Assembly (NCBI GenBank): GCA_020073345.1
Contig: JAIQFI010000045.1
Coordinates: forward strand, 1-50,926
DNA: 50,926 nt
Origin: Terriglobia bacterium
Lineage (GTDB): Bacteria > Acidobacteriota > Terriglobia > Bryobacterales > Bryobacteraceae
Reading direction: 5' to 3'
Shown: piece after piece, positions 10,734 to 31,017 of the stretch
How the letters are laid out: every line of letters starts with the position of its first letter
Numbering within the stretch: position 1 is the first letter of the stretch
Position numbers and translations under genes: made by a program
The notes under the pieces: model-generated
What the model was told of the DNA's origin: nothing
The model's database searches: none
What the model saw: the letters and a program-made list of their open reading frames with translations, nothing else

Positions 10734-10949
10734 TTCCGAACAACTTACCATTTTCTGAGACCTTCCGTAATCGCCCAATTCTGCCGTTCTGCCGCCCGCA
10801 AAGACGCAACTGCTTCGTTTTGGATCGCGATAAGTCGCGAAGTGGTTACCGATAGCTGGCGGGAACAGCCCTTACCACCAACAATCAACCCAGCGCCCAG
10901 AAACAGCGTTAGCTTCTGTGGGATCGCCGAATCTCTTTCCTCATGTGAC

Positions 10950-13522: not shown

Positions 13523-14206
13523 TCAATGCGCGGTATGGACGTCTCTGGCCTTCTTTGCATCTTTGTATACCTGCCGCACCGTTGTTGCACCTGCTCGTGC
13601 CTTGCGTCCTATTTCGCGCCATGACCAACCCTCATCGCGGAGTCTGACAATCTGTTCCCGGTCGAGAATCTTTCTTGGTCGACCCACCGCCTTCCTGGGC
13701 AAATTGCCGATCTGCCGGGCATGCGATATTCTGGCAGTGCGCTCGGCCCGAATGTCCCGCTCCAGTTGAGCCATCGCGGCGACGATCGAGAACAGGGTCC
13801 GGCCCATTGGCATGGAGGTGTCCAGCAATTCTTGGTGGGAGATGAAGTCGATCCCCATCTCTCGGAACTTCTCGAGGACGGCAACGAACTGCTTGATGCT
13901 CCGGGCGAATCGGTCAAGTCGCCAGACGACGACCACATCAAACAGGCCGCGGCGAGCGTCTTTCATGAGCGCGTCCAGGCCGGAACAGCTTTCGTTGGCT
14001 CCGCTCGCCCCGTCGGAATAAACCCGATGCAAGGTCCACCCGCGCTGGAAGATTAAGTAGCGGAGCGGTTGTTCCTGGACTTCGAGATTCTGGATGAAGT
14101 TAGCGTCACCCTGCTTTGATTTGAAGGCAGTGGAGACGCGCAAGTAGAGGGCTACGTTTCGCCCCGTTGCTGCCGTGCTGGCAGATGATTGGTTTGTCTG
14201 GTCCAT
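13523..14206 (-). CDS. serine recombinase (resolvase/invertase family)
   Basis: 227 aa. The N-terminal catalytic domain carries VALYLRVST with the nucleophilic serine, then VYSDGASG, FDVVVVWRLDRFARS with the conserved arginines, and FSIVAAMAQLERD followed by ERTARI at the start of the long E helix. The C-terminus has a helix-turn-helix (RDEGWSWREIGRKA, then TTVRQVYKD). This is the compact resolvase type rather than a large phage integrase. It cuts and rejoins short DNA sites in element resolution or inversion. It lies between two tRNA fragments pointing in opposite directions, consistent with a degraded integrative element. The gene appears intact. Confidence 0.9.
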   Translation of the reverse strand: MDQTNQSSASTAATGRNVALYLRVSTAFKSKQGDANFIQNLEVQEQPLRYLIFQRGWTLHRVYSDGASGANESCSGLDALMKDARRGLFDVVVVWRLDRFARSIKQFVAVLEKFREMGIDFISHQELLDTSMPMGRTLFSIVAAMAQLERDIRAERTARISHARQIGNLPRKAVGRPRKILDREQIVRLRDEGWSWREIGRKARAGATTVRQVYKDAKKARDVHTAH

Positions 14207-15453: not shown

Positions 15454-16455
15454 ATGCCGCGGCCCCATAACATTTCGCTCCCGTCGAGGAGACTTACCGC
15501 TGAGAGAGCCAGCCAAGAACCTCTCCCAGTCCTGCGAATAAAGGGTGCCCCCGACTTCCGGCCGCGTGCCGTTCCCAGGGAACTGCTTACAGCGGCTCGA
15601 GCTTCCAATCTTGTTCTCCTGGCGGTCACGGATTGGCTGATCATCGCGGCGATATGGCTGACCGCGGCGCACCTGCCGATGCAACTGTATCCTTTGTGGG
15701 TGCTGCTGCTGGCAGGCAGGCTTCATGCTCTTGGGGTGGTGCTGCATGACGCGGTTCACATGCCGCTCGAACGAAAAACTCCGGCATTACGCCTCCTGGA
15801 AATCCTAGCTGGATATCCCATTGGATCCACGATCGACGCGATGCGGTACCACCATCTGCGGCATCACCGCGAGAATGGTCTTCCTGAAGACCCTTACTTC
15901 AAGCCTTGGATCGGCGAGAGCCGCGTTCGATTCTGGCTGATGACCTTGCGATACTTTCTACTATTGCCTTTGTGGGCCCTGCGAAGCGTGTACGGTTCTC
16001 TGGCTGCCTACCTGCCGATTTTGCGCACTAGCTACGGCCGATGGTTTCTCCAAGACAGGTACAAGGGTGACCTGACCAATAGTGCCGAACTACTTCGTTG
16101 CGCACGCGAGGACCGTTGGCAACTTCTATTCCACACTGGCGTTTTCGCGTTTGCGATGTCCTACTCAAGCTGGCTGCTGACCTATTACGTCGTCCCCGCC
16201 GTGATAGCCGGTTACTTCGCCGGTTATCGCCTCCAGGTGGAGCACAGGCAGGAACCGAATCATGACCGTGGTTTCCAGACGACGGTTCATTCCACGCGGG
16301 ATCACGACCTTGGACTGGCCGGTAAAATCCTCCTGGCGCCCCACAATGTTGGATATCACCGCGTCCACCATCTGCACCCGCAGGTCGCGCTCCAAAACCT
16401 TCCGGAACTCAGGGATTGGTATGTCGAGAACTACGGGGAGATCTATCGGAGTTGA
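15454..16455 (+). CDS. fatty acid desaturase family membrane protein
   Basis: About 333 aa from the ATG at 15454; the longer upstream ORF overlaps the palindrome region and does not look like protein. Three histidine boxes of the membrane desaturase/hydroxylase superfamily are present: HDAVH (residues 98-102), HHLRHH (133-138) and HRVHH near residue 305. Hydrophobic helices lie at about 50-92 and in the 160-185 and 230-270 regions. The enzyme would use a diiron centre and O2 to desaturate or hydroxylate an acyl chain or similar lipid. It converges on the radical SAM gene and overlaps it by 13 bases, so the two ends cannot carry an intergenic terminator. Confidence 0.9.
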   Translation: MPRPHNISLPSRRLTAERASQEPLPVLRIKGAPDFRPRAVPRELLTAARASNLVLLAVTDWLIIAAIWLTAAHLPMQLYPLWVLLLAGRLHALGVVLHDAVHMPLERKTPALRLLEILAGYPIGSTIDAMRYHHLRHHRENGLPEDPYFKPWIGESRVRFWLMTLRYFLLLPLWALRSVYGSLAAYLPILRTSYGRWFLQDRYKGDLTNSAELLRCAREDRWQLLFHTGVFAFAMSYSSWLLTYYVVPAVIAGYFAGYRLQVEHRQEPNHDRGFQTTVHSTRDHDLGLAGKILLAPHNVGYHRVHHLHPQVALQNLPELRDWYVENYGEIYRS

Positions 16456-18068
16456 GTCAACTGGGGTAGCTCGGCCGGAACAGACCGGTCTACGCACCGT
16501 TCCACATCGGCCGCAAGCTGCCAATCGACGAATCGATTCAGACCGTCGAAAATCCAAGACGTGACGGGTGAACCACGGGCAAGGGCTTGTTGCCGGCGCA
16601 GCAGGGCACCCCGCTCTTCCGCGCGGTAGCTCAGTAGTCGGTCGTGGAAGAGAGCTGCGTGTAATGAAATGCCTTCGCCCATTATGGAGCGATGCAATTC
16701 CCTCACATGGTTGCCGACCTCGGCGCAGGACATGGTCCGATGCCGCCAATAAGGCGCCCCCGTCTTCAGATGGTCCGCGGTGTGCAGATCAAAGCGATGG
16801 CGATTGGCCTCGGTAAGCAAAGGGACTCCGGTCGCTCGCGTGCTGAACGGGGCCAGGAAGAAAAAGTCAGGAGGATGCTGGCGGAGAAACTCCAGCGTAC
16901 GGGCGAGCGTTCCCGCGCTCTCTCCGGGGAACCCGACGATGAGCGAAACTACGCTGGTGATGCCGTACTTGCGGCAATTGTCGAGGGCACGGCCGTTTGA
17001 TTCCACCGTACAGGCCTTATCCATATTGTCTAGCTGTCCTTGGTCACCCGATTCAATGCCTATTTGAACCTGATGAACGCCCGCCGCCTTCATCAGGGCG
17101 GTTGTACGCTCGTCGGCCAAATCGTCGGCCCGGGCGTAACAGATCCACTTCACGCTCAGCCGCCGTTTCAGAAGGCTCCGGCAGAATGTCACAAGCCGGG
17201 GCCGCGGCACGGTGAAGAGCGAATCCAGGCAAGTGATGAATTCGATATTGAGATGAGTGAGGTACTTCTCCCATTCCTCCACCATACGCTCAGCGCTCTT
17301 GTATCGAAAACGGGTGTCCGTGAATAGATAAGGATAGTTGCAGAAGTTACAGCGATAAGGGCAGCCGCGGACGCTTTCGTAGTAGATCATGCGGTAACGG
17401 GTCTTACGATCACGCTCGGAGAGGCTCCAATCTGGAGTGGGAAGAAAGTCAAGCGTATTGGTTGCAGGGACGCCGCTATAGAGAACCCGTGTGGAGCCGC
17501 GCTGCACAAGACGCCCGCCTGAAGGGGGACGCAGCTCCTTAAAGCCGGAGCGCATCCAGTCCACCAGCGACGGCACCAGAAACTCGCCGTAGCCAGCGGC
17601 GAGGACTTCGACCTCCCTCATACCTTCCCAGCGCTCGGCGAGAAGACTCGCCAGAGGGCCACCGAGAACAAGGTGATTGTGCCGCCGCTTGACCATTTGA
17701 ATCAGCGGCAAGATCTCACTCAGATCACGCAGAAAAGTCGTCGAAAGGAAGACGCAATCCGTTTCCGCCAGAAGCTGTTCGATTAAGCGAGGCTGATCGA
17801 AGGCTTCACAATAGGTCGCCAACTTGTACTCCACTCCAGCCTGGTTGAGAAGAGTGGCAAGAACAACCTCAGCGAGGTCGGGCGCCCAAAGATCAGCGCC
17901 CTGAGGTCGCGGTTTGCGGATCAGGAATTCAGCGAAGACGAGTTTAATCTTTAGATCCAACCATGCGTGTTCAGAAGCCCGCCATTGTCGAAAGAGCTTG
18001 CGCAGGGAACTCCAGACCGAAGCTTCGGTTCCAGTGACCAAACCACCGGTCAGGATCAGCACTTTCAT
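16443..18068 (-). CDS. B12-binding-type radical SAM enzyme (third of the locus)
   Basis: 541 aa. The N-terminal Rossmann-like half reads DCVFLSTTFLRDLSEIL and LVLGGPLASLL, the pattern of the cobalamin-binding domain of B12 radical SAM proteins, but without DxHxxG. The radical SAM motif RGCPYRCNFC gives cysteines 236, 240 and 243 for the 4Fe-4S cluster. Later strands match the family (YARADDLADE, VQIGIESGDQ, SLIVGFPGES). Such enzymes methylate or rearrange unactivated carbons. The start overlaps the stop of the GH3 gene as ATGA (18065-18068). It is the last gene of the minus operon. It differs from the adjacent pair at 21.6-24.4 kb and is not a simple duplicate. Confidence 0.9.
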   Translation of the reverse strand: MKVLILTGGLVTGTEASVWSSLRKLFRQWRASEHAWLDLKIKLVFAEFLIRKPRPQGADLWAPDLAEVVLATLLNQAGVEYKLATYCEAFDQPRLIEQLLAETDCVFLSTTFLRDLSEILPLIQMVKRRHNHLVLGGPLASLLAERWEGMREVEVLAAGYGEFLVPSLVDWMRSGFKELRPPSGGRLVQRGSTRVLYSGVPATNTLDFLPTPDWSLSERDRKTRYRMIYYESVRGCPYRCNFCNYPYLFTDTRFRYKSAERMVEEWEKYLTHLNIEFITCLDSLFTVPRPRLVTFCRSLLKRRLSVKWICYARADDLADERTTALMKAAGVHQVQIGIESGDQGQLDNMDKACTVESNGRALDNCRKYGITSVVSLIVGFPGESAGTLARTLEFLRQHPPDFFFLAPFSTRATGVPLLTEANRHRFDLHTADHLKTGAPYWRHRTMSCAEVGNHVRELHRSIMGEGISLHAALFHDRLLSYRAEERGALLRRQQALARGSPVTSWIFDGLNRFVDWQLAADVERCVDRSVPAELPQLTQLR

Positions 18069-19714
18069 GAATCACCGATCCCCGCAGAACGGACTGCGGC
18101 CAGCTCTTCCACGAAACGGCCCCGGAATCTCTCGGACCATCCATCCCCGCGATCGAGACACACTGGTTTGATATCGCCAATCCGTAGTCCCCGCGAAGAG
18201 CAGGCGTTTAGGTAGGTAGAGGCGGCGCCTTTCGCGAGAAAGATCCGCAGGCTACCAAGCTGGCCGAGCCGACGCGCATAGCGGTAATGAAAGTTTTCCT
18301 GCAATCTGTGTTCCATGCTGTCGGCTGCTCTCTGAAGGGTCGCGTCGGGAGCGGACGTCTCGAGATAGAGCGCATAAGTGGAAACAGCGCCGCCGTTGTC
18401 ACACGCCAACATTGCGAATGCGGGCGCGATATCGAATTCGGAAAAGACCGATTCGAGAATACCCCTTACGTGGGCCTCATTTAGTTTTTCTCCGAACCAG
18501 TCCGAGACATGTCCCTGCCGCCCAACGAAACGCACCAGCGGGCATTGTCTCCATCGGCCAGTCACTTCCACCAAGTCCTTCAATTGATAGCGATAGAGTC
18601 CGCCGCCGGTCGTCAGGACCACTGAATAGCGCTGTCCGGAATCGAGCTGGTCGGCTAGCGCCGAGTGTTGGCTGTCCGCCTCTCCGTCTCGATCCACTGG
18701 AAGAAATTCGAAGAAATGGGACCGCACGGCAAGAGCGGCGCCGTCGCATCCGGCCAGCGGCAAAGAAACGAACCCTTCGGTGGCGATCAGTCCTTTAGCT
18801 TGTATCCGGGATTGCGGAAACAGATCCGCCAGCCTGGCGGCCGGACCTGCCGCGTTCGCATCGGCCCAACAGCTGATCAGACCCAGTTTCGGCCACAACC
18901 GTACGTGCCGATCCTGGGGGGTTCCTGGAAGGAGAGCATGGCGCACCTCAGCGGCGCGGCGGGGATCCGAATGGGTCCCTTGCCGCAGATCATAGATAAG
19001 TCGATCGCCCCATTCCGGTAGGCGTTCCAAAATCAGCGAGAAAAAACTCGGATTCCAGATGGAGGCGAGTCTCAAGTTGCGAGCGCGAACAAGGTACAGC
19101 AACGTGACGTAACGAAATGCGTCGACGTCGGATGTTAACCGCACGTCGCCGGGCACCGCCATCACCGCGTTTACAAGCCGGCGTTGCCAGCCGCCGACGT
19201 AAGCCGTGTCGTCGTCAAAACCGATCGGCATGCCTCCAGGTGTCGTTCTGCGCTCCGCCATCACGGGGCTGACTGACCAGTAAGCCTGGCCGCCGAGGAG
19301 ATCGGGATACTCCAGGAAAAGGTCCGCAATCCATGCGCGGATTCCCTGCTGGAACTCTCTTTGGAGGGATTGCGTATAGGGAATCCATTTGGCGGAACCG
19401 GAAGAGCCACTGGTCGGCTCGAATAGGCGTATGCGCTCGCGGGTAAGAACGTTGGGGATACCTTCAGCCGCGCGGTCAATCCACTGCAGATAGTCCTCGT
19501 AGCCACGCAACGGAACCCTTTGTAGATAGTCGGAATAGGAGCGAATCGACGAGAAGCCGTGCAGGCGCCCGAACTCCGTCTCGGCGTTGGCAGCGAGGAT
19601 GGCTCGAAGAAGTCGTTGCTGTTCTTCCGCGATGTCCCGCGATGCACGATGAAACCGGGCCGACTCCGCCATGCAGCCGGCCAGCCACAACGTGTTCGCA
19701 CAGGTCGCGATCAT
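18065..19714 (-). CDS. GH3-family acyl-adenylate/amide synthetase
   Basis: 549 aa, the usual GH3 length. The ATP-binding motif TSGSSGSAKW (residues 101-110), the central SCWADANAAG segment and TTGGGLYRYQLKDLVEVTG near residues 385-400 are the hallmarks of the auxin-responsive-promoter GH3 fold. Family members adenylate a carboxylic acid and transfer it to an amine, usually an amino acid. In bacteria they occur in secondary-metabolite loci, but the substrate cannot be read here. The gene starts 6 bases after the GNAT-like gene and ends in an ATGA overlap with the third radical SAM gene, so it is embedded in the operon. This is the likeliest step for joining an acyl chain to an amine. Confidence 0.88.
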   Translation of the reverse strand: MIATCANTLWLAGCMAESARFHRASRDIAEEQQRLLRAILAANAETEFGRLHGFSSIRSYSDYLQRVPLRGYEDYLQWIDRAAEGIPNVLTRERIRLFEPTSGSSGSAKWIPYTQSLQREFQQGIRAWIADLFLEYPDLLGGQAYWSVSPVMAERRTTPGGMPIGFDDDTAYVGGWQRRLVNAVMAVPGDVRLTSDVDAFRYVTLLYLVRARNLRLASIWNPSFFSLILERLPEWGDRLIYDLRQGTHSDPRRAAEVRHALLPGTPQDRHVRLWPKLGLISCWADANAAGPAARLADLFPQSRIQAKGLIATEGFVSLPLAGCDGAALAVRSHFFEFLPVDRDGEADSQHSALADQLDSGQRYSVVLTTGGGLYRYQLKDLVEVTGRWRQCPLVRFVGRQGHVSDWFGEKLNEAHVRGILESVFSEFDIAPAFAMLACDNGGAVSTYALYLETSAPDATLQRAADSMEHRLQENFHYRYARRLGQLGSLRIFLAKGAASTYLNACSSRGLRIGDIKPVCLDRGDGWSERFRGRFVEELAAVRSAGIGDS

Positions 19715-19720
19715 TGCGGA

Positions 19721-20518
19721 TCAGCTATGCCCCGAGCGCATTCCGACGGCTCGCTCACCTGCCCGGGTGAGGTTGGAGCGCGAAATCTCGGTAAGGCACG
19801 CAAGCTCGTCGCCTAGCCGGTATCCCGAATTCACACAGGTGAAGAACGCGATCAAGGGATCGGCCAAACGTTGCTCCGTGACATCCGCGACGCCACCTCG
19901 CACAGGGGTGGGAGAGCGAAACCGGACGATTCCCGACTCCGGATGATACTGGTCGCCGAACTTGCGTTCCCCCAGAGCATCGAGGATCCGTTTGATCTCC
20001 GGCGGCGTGGGAGCTGCCGGATTCGGGTAAAACTCGCGGAAGAATACCGGCAGAAATCGAAACGTCTTGTAGCCGGAACAGATCAGAAACCAGTAAACCT
20101 TGGTGGAGGGCCGCTCCGCTACGATGCGGTCCGCTTCGGCGAAAACCGTACGGCTCCACAACCGGCTGAGGGTGGTTTCGCCCCGGTACTGTTGATCTAC
20201 GATAGTATCCCCAGAGAAGAAAGCGACAACCTCTTGATGGTCCACCTCTGTCTCGATGCGCATCAATGTCGAGAAGCCCTGGATCTCCGTGCTTCTCGCG
20301 TCGCGCAATAAGACGACGGCTTCCTTTTCGGCAAGGTCAGCCTCAAATTGGACACGATGCGTTCCCGCGAAATAGATCTCCATCAAACAGTACATTCGGT
20401 CGCGTTCGCCGGGCGTCAGGTTTTTTCGGGGGACCACTGACCCGGTCAAGATCCGATTGCTGGAGGGATCAAAGGGTGGCGATGTCGACGTAGGCTGGAC
20501 GTTCGTCAAGCTGCTCAT
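19721..20518 (-). CDS. GNAT-like acyltransferase, putative
   Basis: 265 aa. The middle reads like a GNAT fold: AVVLLRDARSTEIQGFST (strand pair), then FFSGDTIVDQQYRGETTLSR, which resembles motif A (a strand followed by xxxxRGxxxxxxL), and a C-terminal WFLICSGYKTFRFLPVFF segment in the place of motif B. It has no signal peptide or membrane helix. The ATG at 20518 overlaps the upstream gene by 50 bases; a later start is possible, but the next ATG would remove the first strand. I would expect acyl-CoA or acyl-ACP as donor. The assignment is weaker than for the next gene. Confidence 0.65.
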   Translation of the reverse strand: MSSLTNVQPTSTSPPFDPSSNRILTGSVVPRKNLTPGERDRMYCLMEIYFAGTHRVQFEADLAEKEAVVLLRDARSTEIQGFSTLMRIETEVDHQEVVAFFSGDTIVDQQYRGETTLSRLWSRTVFAEADRIVAERPSTKVYWFLICSGYKTFRFLPVFFREFYPNPAAPTPPEIKRILDALGERKFGDQYHPESGIVRFRSPTPVRGGVADVTEQRLADPLIAFFTCVNSGYRLGDELACLTEISRSNLTRAGERAVGMRSGHS

Positions 20519-21572
20519 AGAAACTCCTTCCGTCCCACCCTGCCAGATAGAGCCGGCTGGGGTACATCACGTGCGCATACTCCTTCGCCACCGGCAACAA
20601 AGGATCGCGCGAATCAAGCCCCACCAAAAGGTAGCTGAAGCGCCGGACGGCGGCCAGGTTGTAAACGTCCCGAAGCAACGCCCGAAAAACTTCTGGCTCA
20701 TCATGCGCGATGGAAATGAGAGCCGCGTACGCACTGCGAAGCTTGTCCCCGGGCTTGGGAAGCGCTGCGCGGCGAAGCAATGGCGCGCCCAGGTTATAGA
20801 CCGGCGCCACCGTCTTCAGCCATCCGGAATAACCATATATAACGGTCTGCTTGTAGGCCGATTGGTCCCACAAGCCAGCCACTCCTACGATTTCGTCGCC
20901 CCTGCGAGCGATTCGCAGATCCTCTAAATGGAGTCCCGACGCTGCCAGGCTGCGAAGAGACTCATCAGTCCAAACTGGGAAGAACTGGCGCTGCGCACCG
21001 CTGTTTCGCAGAAACTCCGCAACCGCGGCACATTCGCTTTCAGCGGGTGCGCAGATGTCCACCTCAGTTGACACCCGCGCTTTGGCGCCCTGGACTCCGA
21101 TTGCGAGAGTGCAATAGTCGGCCACCGGATAAAACGCCGGAAAGGCTTGCCGCCGATGGTGGACCAGGACGCCGGCGGCTTCTTCGTTCCTATCCACAAT
21201 GGACGCGATGTAGCCCGGCAACGGGTCACGTTCGTGAAGCTGCTTCAGCTCGGAGAACCCTTGAGAAACAAGCCATCGGCCACGAAAGCGAGAATCGATC
21301 CGGAGTTGGCCGAGATAGCCGAGGCGTTGTTGGCAACCGTTTACAAACACTTGGCGAGAAGACCGGCACGCGACCCCGACAACCTCACGATCCTGGCCGG
21401 CCCGCGCCACAAGTACGTGGCAGTCGTCGCCGGTCACCCGGCATCCTGGCCAAAACTCCGGCTCGCGTTCATAGGCAATTTGGATTCGTCCCGGCATCAC
21501 TTCTCGCCGCAATAGTCCGCGGATGGCAGCGTCGTCCGCAGGTGTGGCGAGAGTGATCTCAATCCGCATCAT
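20469..21572 (-). CDS. GNAT-family N-acyltransferase, two-lobed
   Basis: 367 aa, about twice a single GNAT domain. The first lobe shows VLVARAGQDREVVGVAC, then YLGQLRIDSRFRGRWLVSQG, a clear motif A (RxxxRGRWLVSQG) for the acyl-CoA pyrophosphate. A second, more diverged lobe begins near residue 165, with RIARRGDEIVGVAGLWD and SYLLVGLDSRDPLL. It starts with an ATGA overlap (21569-21572) at the stop of the preceding radical SAM gene, so translation is coupled. In this context it may acylate the amine used by the pathway. Confidence 0.78.
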   Translation of the reverse strand: MMRIEITLATPADDAAIRGLLRREVMPGRIQIAYEREPEFWPGCRVTGDDCHVLVARAGQDREVVGVACRSSRQVFVNGCQQRLGYLGQLRIDSRFRGRWLVSQGFSELKQLHERDPLPGYIASIVDRNEEAAGVLVHHRRQAFPAFYPVADYCTLAIGVQGAKARVSTEVDICAPAESECAAVAEFLRNSGAQRQFFPVWTDESLRSLAASGLHLEDLRIARRGDEIVGVAGLWDQSAYKQTVIYGYSGWLKTVAPVYNLGAPLLRRAALPKPGDKLRSAYAALISIAHDEPEVFRALLRDVYNLAAVRRFSYLLVGLDSRDPLLPVAKEYAHVMYPSRLYLAGWDGRSFYEQLDERPAYVDIATL

Positions 21573-22981
21573 TGTGCCTGCAGGGTCACCATTCGCTCGG
21601 TACTTAGAGGCTGGTTGTGCTGCGCCTTCAACAGAGGACCCACGTACGACTCATCGCCCAGTGGAAAGTCTTTCCGCTGCAGAACCTCGGAGCGGAACAG
21701 AAGATTGATGGAGAAAAAGTGCGTCCACATGAACCAGTTCCGGCTGTTAACCTCGAAATCCAAGCCCCTCCGGAAGATGGAGGAATAACTGTAGAAGGCT
21801 TGCCGCGCCTCAATGCACCGCTGCTTCACCTGTTCGGCAGTCAAGCCTTGCGGCGTAAACGGCACCATTCCGTAGCGGTATTCGGGATGAAGCCACCAGC
21901 GGTCATAAAGCAAGCGGCCTTCTTGCTGAAGCCGGTCATAGAGCGGAGTTCCAGGGAATGGCGTCAGGTGATTGAACGCGACGATATAGAAGCGGTGGCG
22001 TTGCGCGAAGGCCAGCGTTTCCCGTAACGTGTCTCCATTGTCTTCGTCGTATCCGAGAATGAACGTGACATACAGCCGGATTTCGTGCCGCTTCAGGTTC
22101 TCGAGCGCCTTCTCGTAGCCGCCCTTCATGGTGTTGAACGACTTTCGCATGCGGCGCAGGTTTTCCGGATTGAGAGACTCAAATCCGATCAGCAAGCCTT
22201 GGCAACCGCTGGCTTTGATGAGACGAAGAAACTCTTCATCGTGGGCCGCATTGATGCTGGCCTGGCTGACCCACCGGATCTTCAACGGGATCAGTGCACG
22301 AAAAAACTCCTTGGCCTGTTCCATGTTCGACGTGATGTTATCGTCGACAAAAAATATGAGCGGCTTCCGGACCTTGCGGATCTCTTCGATGATCTCTTCG
22401 GTAGGGCGGCGCGTCTGCGTGTTGCCGAAATAAGACTGGATGGCGCAGAATTCGCAGCGAAAATGACAACCTCGCCCGGCTTCCACGAGGCCCACGGGCA
22501 GATAACGCTTCCCAGCGAAGATCGACCGATCAGGACGAATGCCGCTGAGGGCCGGGCGCTTCGGTTGACGGTACACCCGCTGTAAACGTGCAGCTCGAAA
22601 GTCATCAATAACGGTTTGCCAGAGTCCTTCCGCCTCGCCCATGACGATGGACTCCGCGTATTCGCTGGTCTCGTCCGGGACCAGCGTTGGATGAAAACCG
22701 CCCATGACCACAGGCACGCCCCGCCGGCGGAACTCAGAAGCGATCTGATAAGAACGTTTCGCGGTGTATGTTTCCACGCTCATCGCCACCAGATCGGTTG
22801 GCTCGTCGAAGGGGATCGATTCGGTTCGATCGTCGTAAAAGCGGATGTCGATATCCTGGTCGCGCGGCGTCAGGCCGGCTAAGGTGGCAGGTGCGAGCGG
22901 CTCCATCTGCCAGGTGCGGATGTAAGGCTGGCCGCGACGACGGCCGATGCAAGGATGCACAAGGGTCAACCGCATACGCAT
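21569..22981 (-). CDS. B12-binding-type radical SAM enzyme (second of tandem pair)
   Basis: 470 aa. The N-terminal cobalamin-type domain has FYDDRTESIPFDEPTDLVAM, then VVMGGFHPTLVPDE; the GGxHPT strand is typical of B12 radical SAM enzymes. RGCHFRCEFC gives cysteines 172, 176 and 179 of the 4Fe-4S site. RWVSQASINAA, GCQGLLIGFESLN and YVTFILGYDEDN follow as barrel strands. It is clearly homologous to the gene directly upstream, which shares LIPLKIRW and GLLIGFESLN. The ATG at 22981 abuts the TGA of that gene with no spacer. Reaction unknown: methylation, ring formation or C-C coupling of lipid chains are all known in this superfamily. Confidence 0.92.
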   Translation of the reverse strand: MRMRLTLVHPCIGRRRGQPYIRTWQMEPLAPATLAGLTPRDQDIDIRFYDDRTESIPFDEPTDLVAMSVETYTAKRSYQIASEFRRRGVPVVMGGFHPTLVPDETSEYAESIVMGEAEGLWQTVIDDFRAARLQRVYRQPKRPALSGIRPDRSIFAGKRYLPVGLVEAGRGCHFRCEFCAIQSYFGNTQTRRPTEEIIEEIRKVRKPLIFFVDDNITSNMEQAKEFFRALIPLKIRWVSQASINAAHDEEFLRLIKASGCQGLLIGFESLNPENLRRMRKSFNTMKGGYEKALENLKRHEIRLYVTFILGYDEDNGDTLRETLAFAQRHRFYIVAFNHLTPFPGTPLYDRLQQEGRLLYDRWWLHPEYRYGMVPFTPQGLTAEQVKQRCIEARQAFYSYSSIFRRGLDFEVNSRNWFMWTHFFSINLLFRSEVLQRKDFPLGDESYVGPLLKAQHNQPLSTERMVTLQAQ

Positions 22982-24391
22982 TCAGGCGCGGGGCGCCAGT
23001 TGCCAATCGCAGGTGTAAAAAGTGTCCAGATGATTGGCGTAGAACCGGTAGCCGAAGTTAGCGGGAATCGCAATCGGCAGTTGCGTGCGCGATCCGGCCA
23101 GCCGCCTCCACATAGATGGATAGCTGTAGGTTTTCTTCCAGGCGCGGCGAGTGTGTCCGAGCAGCTCCTCCGCGGTCATGTTCTTCGGCTCGAAGACCAC
23201 GTGCTGGCCATCGTAAAGGCTCCAGTTCTCGGTCGTAATGCGGTTTTCGGCTTTCAACCTTTTGAACAGAGCCGTGGCCGGAAAAGGCACGGCGATCGCA
23301 TAGCGAGGCAGATCCATGCGCGAGTCGATCACGAATTCGACAGTTTCATCGAAGGTGCGAAGCGTATCGTGATCGAATCCGAAAACAAAGCATCCCATGA
23401 TTGCGATGCCGCGGTCGTGAATCCGGCGGACCACGTCGCGATAGTCGCGCCGCATGTTGAAGGCTTTCTTTGTCTCTTTCAGCGATTCCTGATTGAGCGA
23501 CTCAAATCCGATCAACAGCCCTTTGCATCCGCTGCGCGCGGTTAAATCGAGAAGCTCCTCATCCCAGGCTATGGTCGTGGTTGTCAGTCCAGCCCAGCGA
23601 ATCTTCAGAGGAATCAGCGCGGCGAACAGTTCTTTGGCATAGCCAACATCCGCAATCAGATTCAAGTCGAGAAAAATGACGCGCTTGGCGCCCATCTGCT
23701 TAAGGTCGGCCACGACATCACCCACCGGTTTCTGTAGCGGCTTACCCCAGGCGGCTGGCACCACGCAGAACTCGCATTGGTAGATGCATCCGCGGGTGGC
23801 CTCGATCGTGTCCCCGACATTGACGAGCCTCGCATCGTAGAGCTTCCGTTTCGGAAAGGGCAGGTTCGCCAGCTTCAGGTTCGGGCTTTGATCGTAGCGC
23901 CGCTGCATGCGGCCGGCAACGAAGTCGCGGAGAAGCTGTGGCCAGGACTCCTCGGCGTAACCGGCCACGACACTGTCTGCGTGTCGCATAGCCTCTTCCG
24001 GCAGAAGCGTAGGATGCACGCCGCCGAGCACCACGGGGATGTTTCGCTGCCGCAGACGGGCGGCAATCTCATAGCAGCGCGGCGCAGTTCCGGTAATGGC
24101 GCTGATGCCGACCAGATCCGCGTCGATTCGATCCGGATCTATCTCGTCCACGCCCTCGTCGATGATGCGAATGTCGGCGGGTATCTCCGGAGGAACCAGC
24201 GATGCCAGTGTCGTGAGCGTGAGCGGGGCATACCGCATCGTCTTTTTCCAGATGCCTCCGCGATGCCGGTACAGCGGCCCGCGAGGAGAAAGAAGAGCGA
24301 TGCGAAGTTCGCGACCCACAGAAGGCGCGACGTGAGCGACCGGCTGGTCCACCAATGCTGGATCGCACTGAATCAGGTTCCTTCCGGTCAT
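22982..24391 (-). CDS. B12-binding-type radical SAM enzyme (first of tandem pair)
   Basis: About 469 aa; first gene of the minus operon. I prefer the ATG at 24391 because GAGAGAGG lies about 8 bases upstream, over the ORF start at 24433. The cobalamin-type half contains ADLVGISAITGTAPRCYEIA and VVLGGVHPTLLPEEA. RGCIYQCEFC places the cluster cysteines at residues 202, 206 and 209. The barrel shows FLDLNLIADVGYAKELF, KIRWAGLTTTT and GCFVFGFDHDT. It shares long near-identical stretches with the next gene, evidence of an old tandem duplication. It diverges from the diiron-enzyme operon across a 150-bp promoter region. Confidence 0.92.
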   Translation of the reverse strand: MTGRNLIQCDPALVDQPVAHVAPSVGRELRIALLSPRGPLYRHRGGIWKKTMRYAPLTLTTLASLVPPEIPADIRIIDEGVDEIDPDRIDADLVGISAITGTAPRCYEIAARLRQRNIPVVLGGVHPTLLPEEAMRHADSVVAGYAEESWPQLLRDFVAGRMQRRYDQSPNLKLANLPFPKRKLYDARLVNVGDTIEATRGCIYQCEFCVVPAAWGKPLQKPVGDVVADLKQMGAKRVIFLDLNLIADVGYAKELFAALIPLKIRWAGLTTTTIAWDEELLDLTARSGCKGLLIGFESLNQESLKETKKAFNMRRDYRDVVRRIHDRGIAIMGCFVFGFDHDTLRTFDETVEFVIDSRMDLPRYAIAVPFPATALFKRLKAENRITTENWSLYDGQHVVFEPKNMTAEELLGHTRRAWKKTYSYPSMWRRLAGSRTQLPIAIPANFGYRFYANHLDTFYTCDWQLAPRA

Positions 24392-24541
24392 GAATTCGGC
24401 CTCTCTCAGAACGAATTTGCCCAATCTTAGCACGCCTCAGTGTGTGTGATCCCGGCATTGTTACAGTTTCTAAAGTGACACACTCCCTTCTATCGCGACA
24501 CATATTGTGAGACAGTATAGAAATTCGCAGGACAGACGACC
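24392..24541. promoter_or_regulatory. divergent promoter region of the biosynthetic locus
   Basis: The 150 bp between two divergent operons must hold both promoters. It is AT-richer than its surroundings and repetitive: AGTGTGTGTGA (24439-24449) faces AGTGACACACT (24474-24484) as an imperfect inverted repeat, and GACACA/GAGACA occurs at 24477, 24497 and 24509. CACATATTGTG (24499-24509) is a short dyad. GTATAG (24515-24520) could be a -10 box for the plus operon. These may be binding sites of a local regulator, but no regulator gene lies within the locus. Confidence 0.45.
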
Positions 24542-25411
24542 ATGCATGATGATTCAGCGGCCTGGTATCTTCCGGAGCACCTCACGCACTTGTATTACTC
24601 GCCTGTTTATGCCACCCTAACGCCCGTGCAAAGGAGAGTCTATAACCGGCTGCACGCCTGTTACTTGTGCGAGATGTGCGCATTCCTGGAAGGGGAATTG
24701 CCCCGGTATTATCTTCAAGCTGCGTCGGCACCCAACATTCCCAAACATTTGCTCGCGCAGGCTCAGGCTCTATCGGATTCAGAGAAGCGCCATGCATCCA
24801 TGTTCCGGGCCTTGGCGCGCCGGCTCTCACCTGGACTCTACTGCGAGGACGAATATATTCTCGTTCGGCCGCCATCCCTGCCGGCTCTGATGGTTCGTAC
24901 GCTGTTCAATCTCCCCGCGCTCCGCCCCATGTTGCTATGGATCGCCCTGATTCAAGAGGAGCGAGGCGTTTATTACGGTGAGGAGATCTTACGCCAGGCG
25001 GAGCACCTTGATCCGGCAATGGTCGAGGTGCAGCGCAAGCACCTGGCAGACGAGGAAGAGCATTTGGGATTTGGCGAGGCTCTGCTTCCGTCGTATTGGG
25101 ACGCCTGCCGGCCATGGGTGCGCCGTTTAAATGCGCGGCTGTTTCGGTACGTGTTGAGGGAATACTTGGGCGCGCCCAAGAGGGCCGGAGTGCGCTTGAT
25201 CCACATCTGGGTCAAGGAGTGTCCGGATCTCGAAACCAGAAAATCGGAACTGGTGGATGCGATGCGGGCGCTCGACCGCAATCCCGGCTTCCATAGAAGT
25301 CTTTATTCGCGTAAGATCGTCCCTAAGACTTTTGATTTGTTCGACCGCTATTCGGAATTTTGCGATTTGGGAAAAAGCGTCTGGGGTTATTCCCCCGAGG
25401 TGAACGGGTGA
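24542..25411 (+). CDS. ferritin-like diiron enzyme (AurF-like), putative
   Basis: 289 aa, all-helical and soluble. Four-helix diiron ligands can be traced: CAFLEGE (Glu 50 or 52), DSEKRHASM (ExxH at 81-84), IQEERGVYYGEE (Glu 139/140, 147/148) and LADEEEHLGF (ExxH at 171-174). Two ExxH motifs on separate helices, each paired with a lone Glu, is the ferritin/AurF oxygenase arrangement. AurF-type enzymes oxidise aryl amines or hydroxylate carbon, but substrate choice cannot be read. It is the first gene of the plus operon, and its TGA overlaps the GTG of the desaturase (GTGA, 25408-25411). Confidence 0.75.
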   Translation: MHDDSAAWYLPEHLTHLYYSPVYATLTPVQRRVYNRLHACYLCEMCAFLEGELPRYYLQAASAPNIPKHLLAQAQALSDSEKRHASMFRALARRLSPGLYCEDEYILVRPPSLPALMVRTLFNLPALRPMLLWIALIQEERGVYYGEEILRQAEHLDPAMVEVQRKHLADEEEHLGFGEALLPSYWDACRPWVRRLNARLFRYVLREYLGAPKRAGVRLIHIWVKECPDLETRKSELVDAMRALDRNPGFHRSLYSRKIVPKTFDLFDRYSEFCDLGKSVWGYSPEVNG

Positions 25412-26334
25412 ACGCAGCCGAGTATCCGATTCCGGCCCGTCTCAATCTGGCAATGAGCTTCGGCACATTGGCGGTTCTGGTGACGATCCTCGGGCTAGCT
25501 GGGCGCGTAGCGAGCGGATGGAGCCTGTTCGGCCTGGCCGCTGTGTACGGCGTCGTGATGAACACGGGCTATGCGCTGATCCACGAATCCGAGCATGGCA
25601 TTCTGCACCCCAATCGGAAGCTTAATATGTGGTGCGGCATCATCCTCACGCTTTTCTTCCCGGCTCCCTATCACTTTCTCAGGCAAGGGCACCTCGGTCA
25701 TCACATGCGAAATCGCTCCGATGACGAGGCCTTCGACTTCTATTTCGAGGGGGAGAGTGCGCTGTGGCGCTGGCTACAGCTATACGGTGTTCTCGTGGGC
25801 TTGTTCTGGGCCACCATCGCGCTGAGTAATGTCATCTGCGCCCTGGCGCCCGGCTTGTTGCGCAAGCCAGTGATGCATTTCGAACGCTCCACGACCGCGT
25901 TTCAGAGATCGCTCAACCCGCGCTACGAACTATGGATTCGGCTGGAAGCCCTGGCTGTTTTTGCGCTCCATGGCTCGCTGATGATGCTTTTATCCGTTCC
26001 GCCCTTGCGCTATGTAGCCGTTCTTTGTGGCTTTGGTTTTATCTGGTCGGCGATGCAGTACGCTCACCACTGGGGAACGCCACGAGACGTTTTGCGCGGA
26101 GCCCGGAATCTGCAGACGTTCCGCCTGATCGATCTGCTCTGGATGAATCACAACTGGCACCTAAACCATCACCTGCGGCCAACCGTCCCATGGATTCATC
26201 TACCCAAGCTCTTTGAGGGGCCCGAATACGAGAAGAGGGGCAGCCTGACGTGGGCCTATCTTCGGATGTGGCGTGGCCCGCGCTTCAATCCGGAGCGAGT
26301 GGAAAATCGTTTCTCCGGGAGAATCATCCAGTGA
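25408..26334 (+). CDS. fatty acid desaturase family membrane protein
   Basis: About 308 aa from a GTG at 25408 that overlaps the upstream TGA, with GAGGTGA about 5 bases before it; the ORF start at 25360 lies inside the upstream gene. Histidine boxes: HESEH (59-63), HLGHH (95-99), and NHNWHLNHH with histidines at 248, 251, 254 and 255; an extra HH lies at 220-221. Hydrophobic helices precede the first box and run through about 125-150 and 180-215. It is a diiron membrane enzyme acting on an acyl chain or related lipid, and only distantly related to the desaturase at 15.5 kb. Its end overlaps the next gene by GTGA (26331-26334). Confidence 0.9.
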   Translation: MNAAEYPIPARLNLAMSFGTLAVLVTILGLAGRVASGWSLFGLAAVYGVVMNTGYALIHESEHGILHPNRKLNMWCGIILTLFFPAPYHFLRQGHLGHHMRNRSDDEAFDFYFEGESALWRWLQLYGVLVGLFWATIALSNVICALAPGLLRKPVMHFERSTTAFQRSLNPRYELWIRLEALAVFALHGSLMMLLSVPPLRYVAVLCGFGFIWSAMQYAHHWGTPRDVLRGARNLQTFRLIDLLWMNHNWHLNHHLRPTVPWIHLPKLFEGPEYEKRGSLTWAYLRMWRGPRFNPERVENRFSGRIIQ

Positions 26335-27035
26335 CCACTGCTCCGGGGATGGAGACCACGCGACTCGCGGTCTCAGCCTATCCGGTGCGGCTGCGTGTAT
26401 GGATGTTAATTCTCAATCTTTTTCCGCTGGCTCATGTGTCCATGATGGTCGCCATTGCCGTTGCGAACCTGCCGGTTTGGGTCCGGCTCACGGGTGTTCT
26501 GGTCAGCTTGCTCATCCTGCCTCCGTTACTCGCTCGACTCGTGCACGCGCTTTCGCCGGTTCGCTCCGGAAGGATCGCCGTGGAGACTCCGGGCTTTCTC
26601 GCCTGGTGGGCAACGGCGCAATTCCAGATGATCTTCAACCGCCTCCCGGTGATCGAGGAGTTGATGCGTATTGTGCCGGGCTTGTACTCGAACTGGCTGC
26701 GGTTGTGGGGCTCGCGCATTGGCCGGCTAACCTTCTGGTCGCCGGGGATGGTCGTGCTCGACCGTGAGTATCTCGATTTAGGGGACGATGTTGTGTTCGG
26801 CGCGGGAGTGCGCTTGAACGGTCACGTTATTTTGCGCAATCGGCATGGACGCCTGGAACTAGCGCTGGCACCTATCAAGATCGGGTCCGGTGCCTCGATC
26901 GGCGGGTATTCTCTGATAACGGCTGGAACCGAAATCGCGCCGGGCGAGTCAACCCGGGCGCATTTACTGTCACCACCGTTCACGGTATGGCGGGACGGGA
27001 AAAGATGGAAAGGGGTGGACGATGAATCGTTCTAG
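26331..27035 (+). CDS. membrane-anchored left-handed beta-helix acyltransferase-like protein
   Basis: 234 aa from GTG 26331, overlapping the desaturase stop. Two hydrophobic helices near residues 22-70 are followed by a soluble part with hexapeptide-like turns: LDLGDDVVFGAGVRLNGHVIL, then IKIGSGASIGGYSLITAGTEIAPGE. These [LIV]GxxxxI-type repeats build a left-handed beta-helix, as in acyltransferases of the LpxA/CysE class. There are too few coils for a classical trimeric enzyme, so it may be a truncated or accessory form. Terminal VWRDGKRWKGV closes the fold. Its position suggests a role in acyl transfer onto the product. The stop overlaps the next gene by 14 bases. Confidence 0.65.
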   Translation: MTTAPGMETTRLAVSAYPVRLRVWMLILNLFPLAHVSMMVAIAVANLPVWVRLTGVLVSLLILPPLLARLVHALSPVRSGRIAVETPGFLAWWATAQFQMIFNRLPVIEELMRIVPGLYSNWLRLWGSRIGRLTFWSPGMVVLDREYLDLGDDVVFGAGVRLNGHVILRNRHGRLELALAPIKIGSGASIGGYSLITAGTEIAPGESTRAHLLSPPFTVWRDGKRWKGVDDESF

Positions 27036-27603
27036 TTGGGCGCTGTTCCTGCTGGGCTCCGTGCTGAGCGGGCAGAATGCAACACAGCGATCTCCCGACG
27101 AAGAGGCAGAGTGGGTGAAGATCCGGGAGGTCAAGGCGATCTATGAGGATGCGGTCAGTTCCAACCAGATTGAGAAGCTGCGTCCTTATATCGCCAGCAA
27201 CTTTCACGGTGTTCTGGTAACAGGCGCCGAAGCGCGATCCTTCGATGACCTACTCAAGCGTAACCAGGAAATCCGGGATCTCATCGGCGCAGGAGGAAGC
27301 TACAAGGTTGCGATCAATTATGATCCTGGCACCATGTTCGGTAACATCGCCGTTGCGAACGGAACAGCCGAAGAGTCCATCGTGACGGGCGGCGGCAAGA
27401 AATTCAATTTTGTATCTCGCTGGCTCGTGAATATGGTCAAGGAAGACGGTTCGTGGAAGCTTTATCGTTTTCAGGCGACGCTGGACCCCGTGGATAACGT
27501 TTTCGTGCAGGATACGGTGAAGTATAACCGCATGGTTTTCGGCGGCGGCGCCTTGGTGATTGGGGCTCTTCTTGGTTTTGTAATTCGTGGATTCCGACGC
27601 TGA
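27022..27603 (+). CDS. SnoaL/NTF2-like (DUF4440-type) exported protein with C-terminal helix
   Basis: 193 aa. The N-terminus is a signal peptide (LFLLGSVLSGQNA). A cone-shaped NTF2-like domain follows: REVKAIYEDAVSSNQIEKLRP, IASNFHGVLVTG, and VSRWLVNMVKEDGSWKLYRF, the last being the classic SnoaL/DUF4440 ending. A final helix (GGGALVIGALLGFVIRGFRR) probably anchors it in the membrane, leaving the domain outside the cytoplasm. NTF2-like folds act as cyclases, isomerases or simple ligand binders. No catalytic pair is obvious. It overlaps both neighbours (14 and 17 bases), so it belongs to the operon. Confidence 0.75.
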   Translation: MNRSSWALFLLGSVLSGQNATQRSPDEEAEWVKIREVKAIYEDAVSSNQIEKLRPYIASNFHGVLVTGAEARSFDDLLKRNQEIRDLIGAGGSYKVAINYDPGTMFGNIAVANGTAEESIVTGGGKKFNFVSRWLVNMVKEDGSWKLYRFQATLDPVDNVFVQDTVKYNRMVFGGGALVIGALLGFVIRGFRR

Positions 27604-28291
27604 GTCTTCCACGTTGGAGCCCTTCAAGACCCGACTTCTCGTATACGCGCGCTGGAGCATCGGGCTCACGATCTTATTTGTGATCACTTACTACACCACG
27701 AACTGGCTTGCTGCGCAACGGACAACTCACTGGCGACTCTACTTCGATTGGGAACTCGGAGTTCCCTTTGTGCCCTGGATGATCTACGTCTACCTTTCGT
27801 TCAACCTGTTGGCAGTCTGGCCACTCTTTCTCTTAGATGTGGCAGGCATCCAACGGTTCGGTCGAACGTTTGCACTCGCAACGTTAGTAGCCGCTGTGGC
27901 TCACCTGGCATTCCCAGCAGATCTGGGCTGGTCGCGCGTAACTTCGGTTCCGAATTATCCAGTGTTCGCTCGATTCTTCGCATTCGATCGGCCCTACAAC
28001 CTCGTCCCATCTCTGCACGTGGGCTACAGCACTCTGACGTCGATGGTGATATGGAATGCCTCAAGACACTTATGGGTCCGAATCCTGGCCGCTGGCTGGC
28101 TCGGGTTGTTAATCTGTTCAGTCTTTCTAATCCACCAGCATCACTTGGCGGACGTTGTTGGTGGCCTCGTGTTGGCGATCATCAGCTACAGATGGTTTGC
28201 TAGGATCTCGAAAACAAGGGAATGGACGGTATCCAGTAGAAGCCTACGCGCCACGGGGATTCCAAGGAAACCTATGTCACCGGCGAAATGA
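27587..28291 (+). CDS. PAP2-superfamily membrane phosphatase (Aur1/Ipt1-like)
   Basis: 234 aa with about six hydrophobic helices. Two motifs of the PAP2 active site are present: LVPSLHVGYSTL (PSxH type) and LIHQHHLADVVGGL (HxxxD type). The arrangement, with the motif in the second half and PSLHV spelling, resembles inositolphosphotransferase/phosphatidate phosphatase relatives. It would remove or transfer a phosphate on a lipid head group. The GTG at 27587 overlaps the upstream stop by 17 bases. It is the last gene of the plus operon, which gives the locus a membrane-lipid flavour. Confidence 0.85.
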   Translation: MDSDAESSTLEPFKTRLLVYARWSIGLTILFVITYYTTNWLAAQRTTHWRLYFDWELGVPFVPWMIYVYLSFNLLAVWPLFLLDVAGIQRFGRTFALATLVAAVAHLAFPADLGWSRVTSVPNYPVFARFFAFDRPYNLVPSLHVGYSTLTSMVIWNASRHLWVRILAAGWLGLLICSVFLIHQHHLADVVGGLVLAIISYRWFARISKTREWTVSSRSLRATGIPRKPMSPAK

Positions 28292-29415: not shown

Positions 29416-30546
29416 CTAATTCTCAGAAGGCTTTTCCACCTTGTCGATGACCATGACGTCGACGGGCGCCTTGGTCGATTCCAGCTTCAATCCCAGCTGC
29501 TGCTGGAAGGCGGTGAACAGATCCGGAGCGGCATCGGGATTGTCGGCCGCGGGAGGTGGAGGGCCACCAATAAGCGCCGCCTGAGCCGGATCGGGTGTGA
29601 AGGTCAACGTGAAGTCGTACCTTTCGGAAAGGCCCGACTGGTCCACCACAGGTTTATCTAACGAGTTTTGCAACACCGCGGCGATTTGCGATAGTGGCGC
29701 GTTCCTGAAGGTGATCCTCGTTCCCGATGCAGTTCTTCCGAAAGACCATCCGGGAATGCCCTTCGGATCGTCCTGGCTCTTGATAATTTTCGCTCCGGTT
29801 TTTGCGATCCCGATCGCGTATACCGAGAGATCTCTCTTCTCGAAATGGAATTTGAGCTGGAAGCGATCGGCCAGCAGCTTCTGAATCATCATCTTCATCT
29901 GGTCAACGTTGGGCTGCCCCAGCGCATCGGGCTTTCCCGCCAGGTCGAACTTGTCCGATTCCGTCCAGGCCGGTCCGCCGGTAAGCTGCTTGGGATGGAG
30001 CCAGTAAGCCAAGTTGATCAGATCGTGCACGGTCACGTTCGTTGTGATAACCTCGGCGCCTCTCAACGTAATTATTTGGCCCGGCCTGGCAGGATCGCTC
30101 GGCCTGATCGTGGCCACTTCGAATGCGGGATTCGCATTCGCCGCCATCCGTACTGGCGGAGGTGAAGGTTCCGGAATCGCCCAGGCGGTCTCGGGAGTGG
30201 CGCGTGCCAGGTTCAAGGCCAGCGGCGCGCCTTGGGTCCACGTCCCCGCGATCGAGTTTCCGTCCCCGCTCAACCTTCCTTCATAGTTGCCGTTTAGGGC
30301 GGGAATTGTCATTTTTACGGTCGAACCGTCCCGTATGATCGTGGTCGCGATAGGCGCCGATGGTTGGTCGACGGTGCGGAGCGAAGCCGTCAGCTTGTCA
30401 TTTTCCAGCGCGATCTTAAACACGATGCGCACTTTTTGCGGGCCGGCCTGCAATGTGCCCTGCCAATTGCCGGTTATATTCTGGGCTTGCAACGCGCTTC
30501 CCTGCAACACCGCGAGAGCCATCATCCACAACGTCAACTTTTTCAT
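29416..30546 (-). CDS. TIGR03435 family exported protein
   Basis: 376 aa from the ATG at 30546, preceded by AGGAGGT at good spacing. Signal peptide MKKLTLWMMALAVLQGSALQ. An N-terminal lipocalin-like beta region (NITGNWQGTLQAG, then LSGDGNSIAGTW) precedes the TIGR03435 body: FEVATIRPSDP, YWLHPKQLTGGPAW, MIQKLLADRFQLKFHFEKR and YDFTLTFTPDP. This family is strongly expanded in Solibacter and relatives and is the best taxonomic hint in the window. Its function is unknown; an extracytoplasmic role is inferred from the signal peptide. It stands alone. Confidence 0.9.
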   Translation of the reverse strand: MKKLTLWMMALAVLQGSALQAQNITGNWQGTLQAGPQKVRIVFKIALENDKLTASLRTVDQPSAPIATTIIRDGSTVKMTIPALNGNYEGRLSGDGNSIAGTWTQGAPLALNLARATPETAWAIPEPSPPPVRMAANANPAFEVATIRPSDPARPGQIITLRGAEVITTNVTVHDLINLAYWLHPKQLTGGPAWTESDKFDLAGKPDALGQPNVDQMKMMIQKLLADRFQLKFHFEKRDLSVYAIGIAKTGAKIIKSQDDPKGIPGWSFGRTASGTRITFRNAPLSQIAAVLQNSLDKPVVDQSGLSERYDFTLTFTPDPAQAALIGGPPPPAADNPDAAPDLFTAFQQQLGLKLESTKAPVDVMVIDKVEKPSEN

Positions 30547-31017
30547 CGGCGACCTCCTGTTTCCCTCGCTCATCAAATAAAGCTGATCAAGTAAAGATGA
30601 TGTCACGGACGCATTGGCTCAGCAACGGGTCGCCGCGCCTCAACGTGGATCGTCGCGATACCCAAAGCATCCTCTAGCCCGGCTGGTCGAATGACCATTC
30701 GCGAATTCGACCGCTCGAGGGAAGTTAATCGTTTTGCACCTATCGCATTCCGCACTGATGACGCGCGATCTGCGCACACCATACTTGCGGGCCGGAAGTC
30801 AGCTTCTGGGAAGGTTCAGTTTTGACGTGCCAGGCTCGTCGAAGTGACCTGTTCTTCTCTCGGCTGGCCGTCAACTTCTGAATCATAGCGTATCCGGTAG
30901 TTATCCAGGTCGACGACTCGACCTCCGGTGCGTTCAGGAATGCGCAGAGTGGTTATGACTCTGCCTGCAATGCTGGTGGCTTTGGGCCTATGTCTGCCAG
31001 CGCAATCGGCTTCGAAA
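30547..31017. other. intergenic, no intact gene
   Basis: The upstream region of the TIGR03435 gene, with its ribosome site at about 30551-30558. A plus-strand frame with a signal-like stretch starts at 30928 and runs into the PQQ-enzyme remnant. Otherwise nothing is recognisable. Confidence 0.35.

Follow-up and report, generated by a model that had tools for sequence, protein, structure and literature searches.

A conserved cluster of GNAT-fold, GH3-family and B12-type radical SAM genes in a Terriglobia bacterium and its proposed role in carrier-free acyl-amide assembly

A compact locus of 12 genes lies at positions 15454-28291 of the window analysed here, a 50,926-nucleotide stretch of DNA from a Terriglobia bacterium (Acidobacteriota, family Bryobacteraceae; contig JAIQFI010000045.1). 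The open reading frame (ORF) listing gives a six-gene operon on the minus strand, a five-gene operon on the plus strand, and a convergent desaturase gene. The minus operon holds, in order, rSAM_A (22982-24391, with an alternative GTG start at 24433), rSAM_B (21569-22981), GNAT367 (20469-21572), GNAT265 (19721-20518), the GH3-family gene (18065-19714) and rSAM_C (16443-18068), and the plus operon holds AurF (24542-25411), DES2 (25408-26334), HEXA (26331-27035), NTF2 (27022-27603) and PAP2 (27587-28291). DES1 (15454-16455, plus strand, alternative start 15325) converges from the left on rSAM_C, their ends overlapping by 13 bp, and a divergent intergenic region of 150 bp (24392-24541) lies between the two operons, next to the rSAM_A ATG at 24391. 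All junctions within each operon overlap or are at most 6 bases apart. In particular, rSAM_C/GH3 and GNAT367/rSAM_B overlap by 4 bp each and GNAT265/GNAT367 by 50 bp, with gaps of 6 bp between GH3 and GNAT265 and of 0 between rSAM_B and rSAM_A; on the plus strand, AurF/DES2 and DES2/HEXA overlap by 4 bp each, given the chosen GTG starts at 25408 and 26331, HEXA/NTF2 by 14 bp and NTF2/PAP2 by 17 bp. An earlier description of this DNA, the sequence-only reading, had given the same layout of 12 genes (six minus, five plus, a 150-bp gap and a convergent desaturase), and the ORF coordinates match it.

The gene families named in that reading are also recovered by Pfam and NCBIfam, which give two FA_desaturase, three Radical_SAM, GH3, AurF and PAP2_3 proteins; its "acyltransferases" correspond to two GNAT-fold proteins and one hexapeptide-repeat protein, and one plus-strand gene, coding for a DUF4440/NTF2-like protein, is additional to its list. 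The GH3 protein, a predicted acyl-adenylating amide ligase, matches the N, M and C domains at 147.6, 70.4 and 31 bits (Pfam cut-off 23.6). The three radical SAM proteins score 55.9 (rSAM_A), 75.5 (rSAM_B) and 70.4 bits (rSAM_C) for the radical SAM domain, while for the B12-binding domain (cut-off 32.1) rSAM_A is over the cut-off at 50.5, rSAM_B exactly at it with 32.1, and rSAM_C below it at 24.8. The motif CX3CX2C is present in 22/22 rSAM_A and 39/39 rSAM_B sequences, and these two paralogues thus combine the motif and the B12-binding domain that mark the B12-dependent radical SAM superfamily. None of the three proteins reaches a curated equivalog cut-off in NCBIfam, the best scores being 98.5 of 481 bits for BchE, 95.8 of 578 for HpnJ, 162.6 of 600 for PhpK (the best model for rSAM_C) and 96.5 of 360 for TIGR04072. 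The genome contains a B12-dependent methionine synthase, which suggests that cobalamin is available to the host; the CobA/BtuR family was not found in the genome.

Among the remaining proteins, DES1 and DES2 belong to the membrane desaturase/hydroxylase family (FA_desaturase, 89.2 and 98.8 bits), with histidine boxes that in DES2 are kept in 9/9 sequences, and AurF is an AurF-like diiron oxygenase (52.7 bits) with ExxH motifs in 3/3. HEXA, with an N-terminal hydrophobic stretch, has a weak Hexapep match (20.6 bits, cut-off 27), and the NTF2-like protein a weak DUF4440 match (14.1, cut-off 25.2) together with a signal-like start and a hydrophobic C-terminal stretch. PAP2 is a PAP2_3-type membrane phosphatase or phosphotransferase (27.3 bits, cut-off 27) whose PSxH motif is found in 8/8 sequences.

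The two GNAT-fold proteins are barely or not at all visible to family profiles. GNAT265 (265 aa) has no credible Pfam or NCBIfam match; its structure model (predicted local distance difference test score, pLDDT, 87.8) gives GNAT matches and a C-terminal extension, pointing to an acyltransferase-like protein. GNAT367 (367 aa) has a weak Acetyltransf_1 match (18.0, cut-off 20.7), and its model shows a tandem GNAT fold along the whole chain that resembles N-myristoyltransferase (NMT). The input to the models was 10 of the 13 aligned GNAT265 rows and 8 of the GNAT367 sequences then known, taken from the window and the scanned loci only. In parallel, 21/21 GNAT367 homologues end at a single alignment column, the last residue being leucine in 19, isoleucine in 1 and valine in 1, which is what a C-terminal carboxylate acting as catalytic base would lead one to expect. 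The modelled fold and the invariant chain end, both new in this analysis, lend support to acyl transfer to an amine.

The distribution of the genes was evaluated in a single set of 347 genomes from the window's phylum, searched with GNAT265, rSAM_B (E 1e-100), AurF (E 1e-15) and GH3 (E 1e-15), which found 11, 7, 3 and 12 carriers, respectively. Every genome with rSAM_B (7) or AurF (3) is also one of the 11 with GNAT265, and GH3 and GNAT265 occur together in 10 genomes; the chance of the 7 rSAM_B genomes all lying in the GNAT265 set is 2.9e-12, or 9.2e-11 without the window's own genome, figures to be read with caution given the kinship of the genomes. In the window's family GH3 is found at E 1e-30 in 4 of 150 genomes, its own included, and in a Chloroflexota sample of 301 genomes GNAT265 occurs in 2, including genome G152, on which that sample was centred. 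A GH3 scan of genome contigs gave 14 loci, from 2 acidobacteria (L009 and L021, the window's closest named relatives), 9 genomes labelled Chloroflexota, 1 other bacterium, 1 member of the Sedimentisphaerales (Planctomycetota) and 1 Thiomargarita; 13 of the source genomes were searched for rSAM_B, and each gave a match at E 1e-40 or below, although the weak matches may be paralogues.

In total, 33 carriers (genomes or records) were compared by profile searches of the fetched stretches, those cut by contig ends being kept and none dropped. Five families form the core, namely GH3 (30 carriers), GNAT265 (29), rSAM_B (23), rSAM_A (21) and GNAT367 (21), and 18 carriers have all five in the stretches fetched; accessory genes are DES2 (9), PAP2 (8), NTF2 (6), HEXA (4), AurF and DES1 (3 each) and rSAM_C (2), the last being lineage-specific and confined to the window and G150 (71% identity). 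The one-strand order rSAM_A, rSAM_B, GNAT367, GNAT265, GH3, with insertions allowed, is kept in 13 genomes (the window's, G067, G120, where rSAM_A is cut by the contig end, G150, G152, G154, G160, G161, G359, G418, G451, G494 and G775); it is permuted in G158, G415 and Citrobacter, and rearranged in G100. Pairwise identities of the core proteins co-vary over 19 genomes (Mantel r 0.54 to 0.92), a comparison that takes in G120 with its rSAM_A fragment. Mean identity in this set is 55% for rSAM_A and 60% for rSAM_B, the most conserved core gene, versus 37% for GNAT367, 41% for GNAT265 and 44% for GH3, which looks like a fixed radical chemistry combined with assembled parts that vary.

Two distant relatives bring the plus-strand genes into the same frame. 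In G451 (locus L051), from another family of the phylum, rSAM_A, rSAM_B, GNAT367, GNAT265, AurF, DES2, HEXA, PAP2, a Rieske gene, NTF2 and GH3 form one operon, and the planctomycete locus L018 has the order GH3, rSAM_A, two rSAM_B-like genes, GNAT367, GNAT265, NTF2, AurF, DES2, HEXA, PAP2. Since both loci join AurF-DES2-HEXA, PAP2 and NTF2 to the core, with HEXA adjoining DES2 as in the window, the plus operon belongs to the pathway. The sequence-only reading had staked its case on recurrence in other genomes, and indeed the genes recur together, often in the same order. Co-occurrence and conserved order thus show that the grouping is not due to chance, and the locus almost certainly encodes a real, conserved biosynthetic pathway.

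The cluster is patchily distributed across phyla and is mobile. A related 11-gene cluster lies on an IncF plasmid, typed mobilizable, of Citrobacter portucalensis from a gull sample (L061, NZ_CP134684.1 51417-63512), with the order GNAT265, GH3, two radical SAM genes, GNAT367, two radical SAM genes, PAP2 and NTF2-like, and a radical SAM and a desaturase gene on the other strand, making five radical SAM genes; no match for it was found in an E. coli collection. The Burkholderia arboris version (L062), without these radical SAM genes, comprises GNAT265, GNAT367, GH3, a Rieske gene, desaturases and a PAP2-desaturase fusion. In a 3.97-Mb Acinetobacter baumannii record classed as a plasmid (L063:6335-15765), the genes are HlyD, MFS, GNAT265, GH3, one for an outer-membrane efflux protein, GNAT367 and SurE, and the cluster's radical SAM genes are not present in the stretch fetched. 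More generally, the accessory oxidases of other carriers vary among AurF, desaturases, FA_hydroxylase and Rieske enzymes; Pfam was run on 50 neighbouring ORFs, picked for nearness to the core out of several hundred called. PAP2-desaturase-family fusions were seen in two acidobacteria (L009:8400-10001 and L021:5814-7406) as well as in B. arboris (L062:5725-7620), SPASM-type radical SAM genes lie inside two Chloroflexota clusters (L029:5137-6225 and L060:7650-8798), and one cluster protein (L054:13699-15120) carries a squalene/phytoene-synthase-like domain (24.9 bits, slightly under the cut-off of 26) after its PAP2 domain.

Around the locus itself, no sigma-70-like site was found in the divergent gap (24392-24541), in which a short palindrome-like stretch, CACATATTGTG, was noted by eye at 24500-24520 and is a possible operator. 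A Resolvase-family recombinase gene lies at 13523-14206, about 1.2 kb to the left of the cluster, and no boundary repeats were recognised around the cluster. To the right is a DUF3738 protein (202 bits) at 29416-30606. In a 664-aa protein at 8784-10778, visual inspection of the ORF list picked out hydrophobic segments and stretches resembling pentapeptide repeats.

The pathway probably makes an acyl-amide, and for its course we infer substrates, steps and product as follows. GNAT367, with its own C-terminal carboxylate as base, would transfer an acyl group from acyl-coenzyme A or acyl-acyl carrier protein to a primary amine, probably that of an amino acid. GH3 would then adenylate the carboxylate of the N-acyl amino acid, or of a separate acid, and couple it to an amine, with GNAT265 performing a further acylation or assisting. 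The radical SAM enzymes, rSAM_A and rSAM_B together with lineage-specific additions like rSAM_C, may methylate or rearrange unactivated carbons of a substrate that most carriers share; this substrate would also be hydroxylated or desaturated by desaturase-family enzymes, by the AurF-like diiron protein and, in other carriers, by Rieske enzymes. Finally, PAP2 (SurE in one relative) may remove or exchange a phosphate, probably at the membrane. To this scheme as a whole, carrier-free assembly by NMT-like transfer and GH3 ligation, with tailoring by B12 radical SAM enzymes and by oxidases of the diiron or Rieske type, we assign a probability of about 0.6. The sequence-only reading had likewise proposed an acyl-amide type without polyketide synthase (PKS), nonribosomal peptide synthetase (NRPS) or carrier genes, and no Pfam family of PKS, NRPS, carrier, condensation or ketosynthase type is found among the 12 proteins. 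The genome's 6 PP-binding matches are all on contigs other than the window's, and the acyl groups could come from the host's fatty-acid carrier. Its view that this is not a described system also holds, in that no such combination was found in the open-access full-text literature, the nearest being the GH3-like enzyme OlsH (PMC12493201).

Several observations weigh against this scheme. Foldseek alone ranked a tandem-GNAT glucosamine acetyltransferase first for GNAT367, whose identity to NMT is about 12%, and no NMT appeared in its sequence-profile searches up to E 10. The gene set is not always intact: GH3 occurs without GNAT265 in G242 and G422 (2 of 12) and GNAT265 without GH3 in G296 (1 of 11), G361 has a weaker rSAM_B match (43% identity) on another contig than GNAT265, AurF of G494 is on another contig than the core, and in several Chloroflexota the cluster genes are split over loci. 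Of the 33 carriers, just 3 have AurF, 4 HEXA, 6 NTF2 and 8 PAP2. Most carriers were found by GH3 or GNAT265 queries, a bias from which the 347-genome counts alone are exempt; moreover, carrier genomes are related by descent and not independent. Motif patterns, taken as too strict, were matched in part, by 4/30 GH3 sequences for the P-loop, 10/22 rSAM_A and 22/39 rSAM_B for a rough B12 loop, and 3/8 PAP2 for HxxxD.

The same genes could instead make a structural amino-lipid or sphingolipid-like membrane component, in which desaturases and hydroxylases would adjust an amide core made by GH3 and the GNATs, with PAP2_3 swapping a phospho-headgroup. The membrane-bound or envelope-side look of PAP2_3, the desaturases, HEXA and NTF2, the FA_hydroxylase genes in L050 and L056 and the amino-lipid precursor made by the GH3 relative OlsH (PMC12493201) all agree with such a role; we nevertheless regard it as rather unlikely, as the patchy distribution (11/347), the plasmid copy and the exporter genes beside the Acinetobacter version suggest an accessory metabolite, and Pfam finds nothing resembling serine palmitoyltransferase among the cluster genes of the window. 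Exporter and SurE genes in L063 would suit a polar natural product, an amide of small amino-acid-derived acids and amines whose small scaffold is hydroxylated by desaturase-family, AurF and Rieske enzymes and then exported. The arginine hydroxylase model GntB scores 51.9 and 29.4 bits against the two desaturases, well under its cut-off of 380, and Rieske genes are present in L051, L052, L056, L060 and L062, but the NMT-like fold of GNAT367 suits long-chain acyl groups and PAP2 and membrane proteins are present, which makes a polar product improbable.

Iso-diabolic and other membrane-spanning lipids are widespread in several acidobacterial subdivisions, and the sequence-only reading had named them as candidate products, in keeping with the acidobacterial host and with radical SAM enzymes in a lipid-looking cluster. 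Polyunsaturated acyl-amides, its other candidate, are a possible product. The membrane-spanning part of the reading was not supported, whereas an acyl-amide made without a carrier of its own was: because the distribution is patchy (GNAT265 in 11/347 genomes of the phylum, GH3 in 4/150 of the family), the fit to such common lipids is poor, the B12 radical SAMs fit BchE/HpnJ/PhpK-type models best, and GH3 and amide chemistry would be unneeded, so that, although no query aimed at a tetraether synthase (Tes) was made, we consider a membrane-spanning lipid pathway highly improbable.

Carrier-free acyl-amide assembly would have wider consequences. Clusters without PKS, NRPS or ribosomally synthesized and post-translationally modified peptide signatures tend to escape standard genome mining, and here the core is a defined set of five genes, with a strong signature of gene order and with carriers from several phyla. 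Should the scheme be true, the assembly of small molecules in bacteria would gain a testable example of an NMT-like enzyme that relies on C-terminal-carboxylate catalysis, along with several uncharacterised B12 radical SAMs that have a common substrate. Tentatively, the locus may represent an undescribed class of mobile clusters, making a new lipid-like product through a bacterial NMT-type acyltransferase and a GH3 ligase, in which two to five B12 radical SAMs repeatedly methylate or cyclise one conserved substrate and an interchangeable amide module (radical-SAM, Rieske and exporter/SurE versions) has been passed around between Acidobacteriota, Chloroflexota, Planctomycetota and Pseudomonadota.

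Among known systems, BchE, HpnJ, PhpK and the ladderane-associated TIGR04072 resemble rSAM_A and rSAM_B in the CX3CX2C motif and the B12-binding domain, whereas the window's radical SAM proteins score 65 to 163 bits where the family cut-offs run from 360 to 600, and are not equivalog members. The comparators for GNAT367 are eukaryotic NMT and the bacterial tandem-GNAT enzymes Eis and MAB_4324, from which it differs in its low identity (about 12%), the lack of a sequence match and its place in a biosynthetic cluster. Plant GH3 acyl-amido synthetases (GH3.8, GH3.15, JAR1) match the window GH3 in sequence (best E 2.4e-17), while the latter is bacterial and lies within a multi-enzyme cluster. We take OlsH to be its nearest characterised bacterial relative, at 75.7 bits (42.5 for the Citrobacter copy) where membership of the OlsH family (NCBIfam NF052613) takes at least 620. 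OlsH uses ATP to join free fatty acid and ornithine into N-acyl-ornithine (PMC12493201), and the authors of that paper expect other amino acids as substrates of other GH3 proteins. The OlsH/OlsI ornithine-lipid pathway of Singulisphaera acidiphila (PMC12493201) shares with the window cluster a bacterial GH3-family protein and carrier-free, ATP-driven joining of an acid and an amine; no OlsI-type alpha/beta-hydrolase O-acyltransferase family is found by Pfam among the 12 proteins, and the window cluster adds GNATs, B12 radical SAMs and oxidases.

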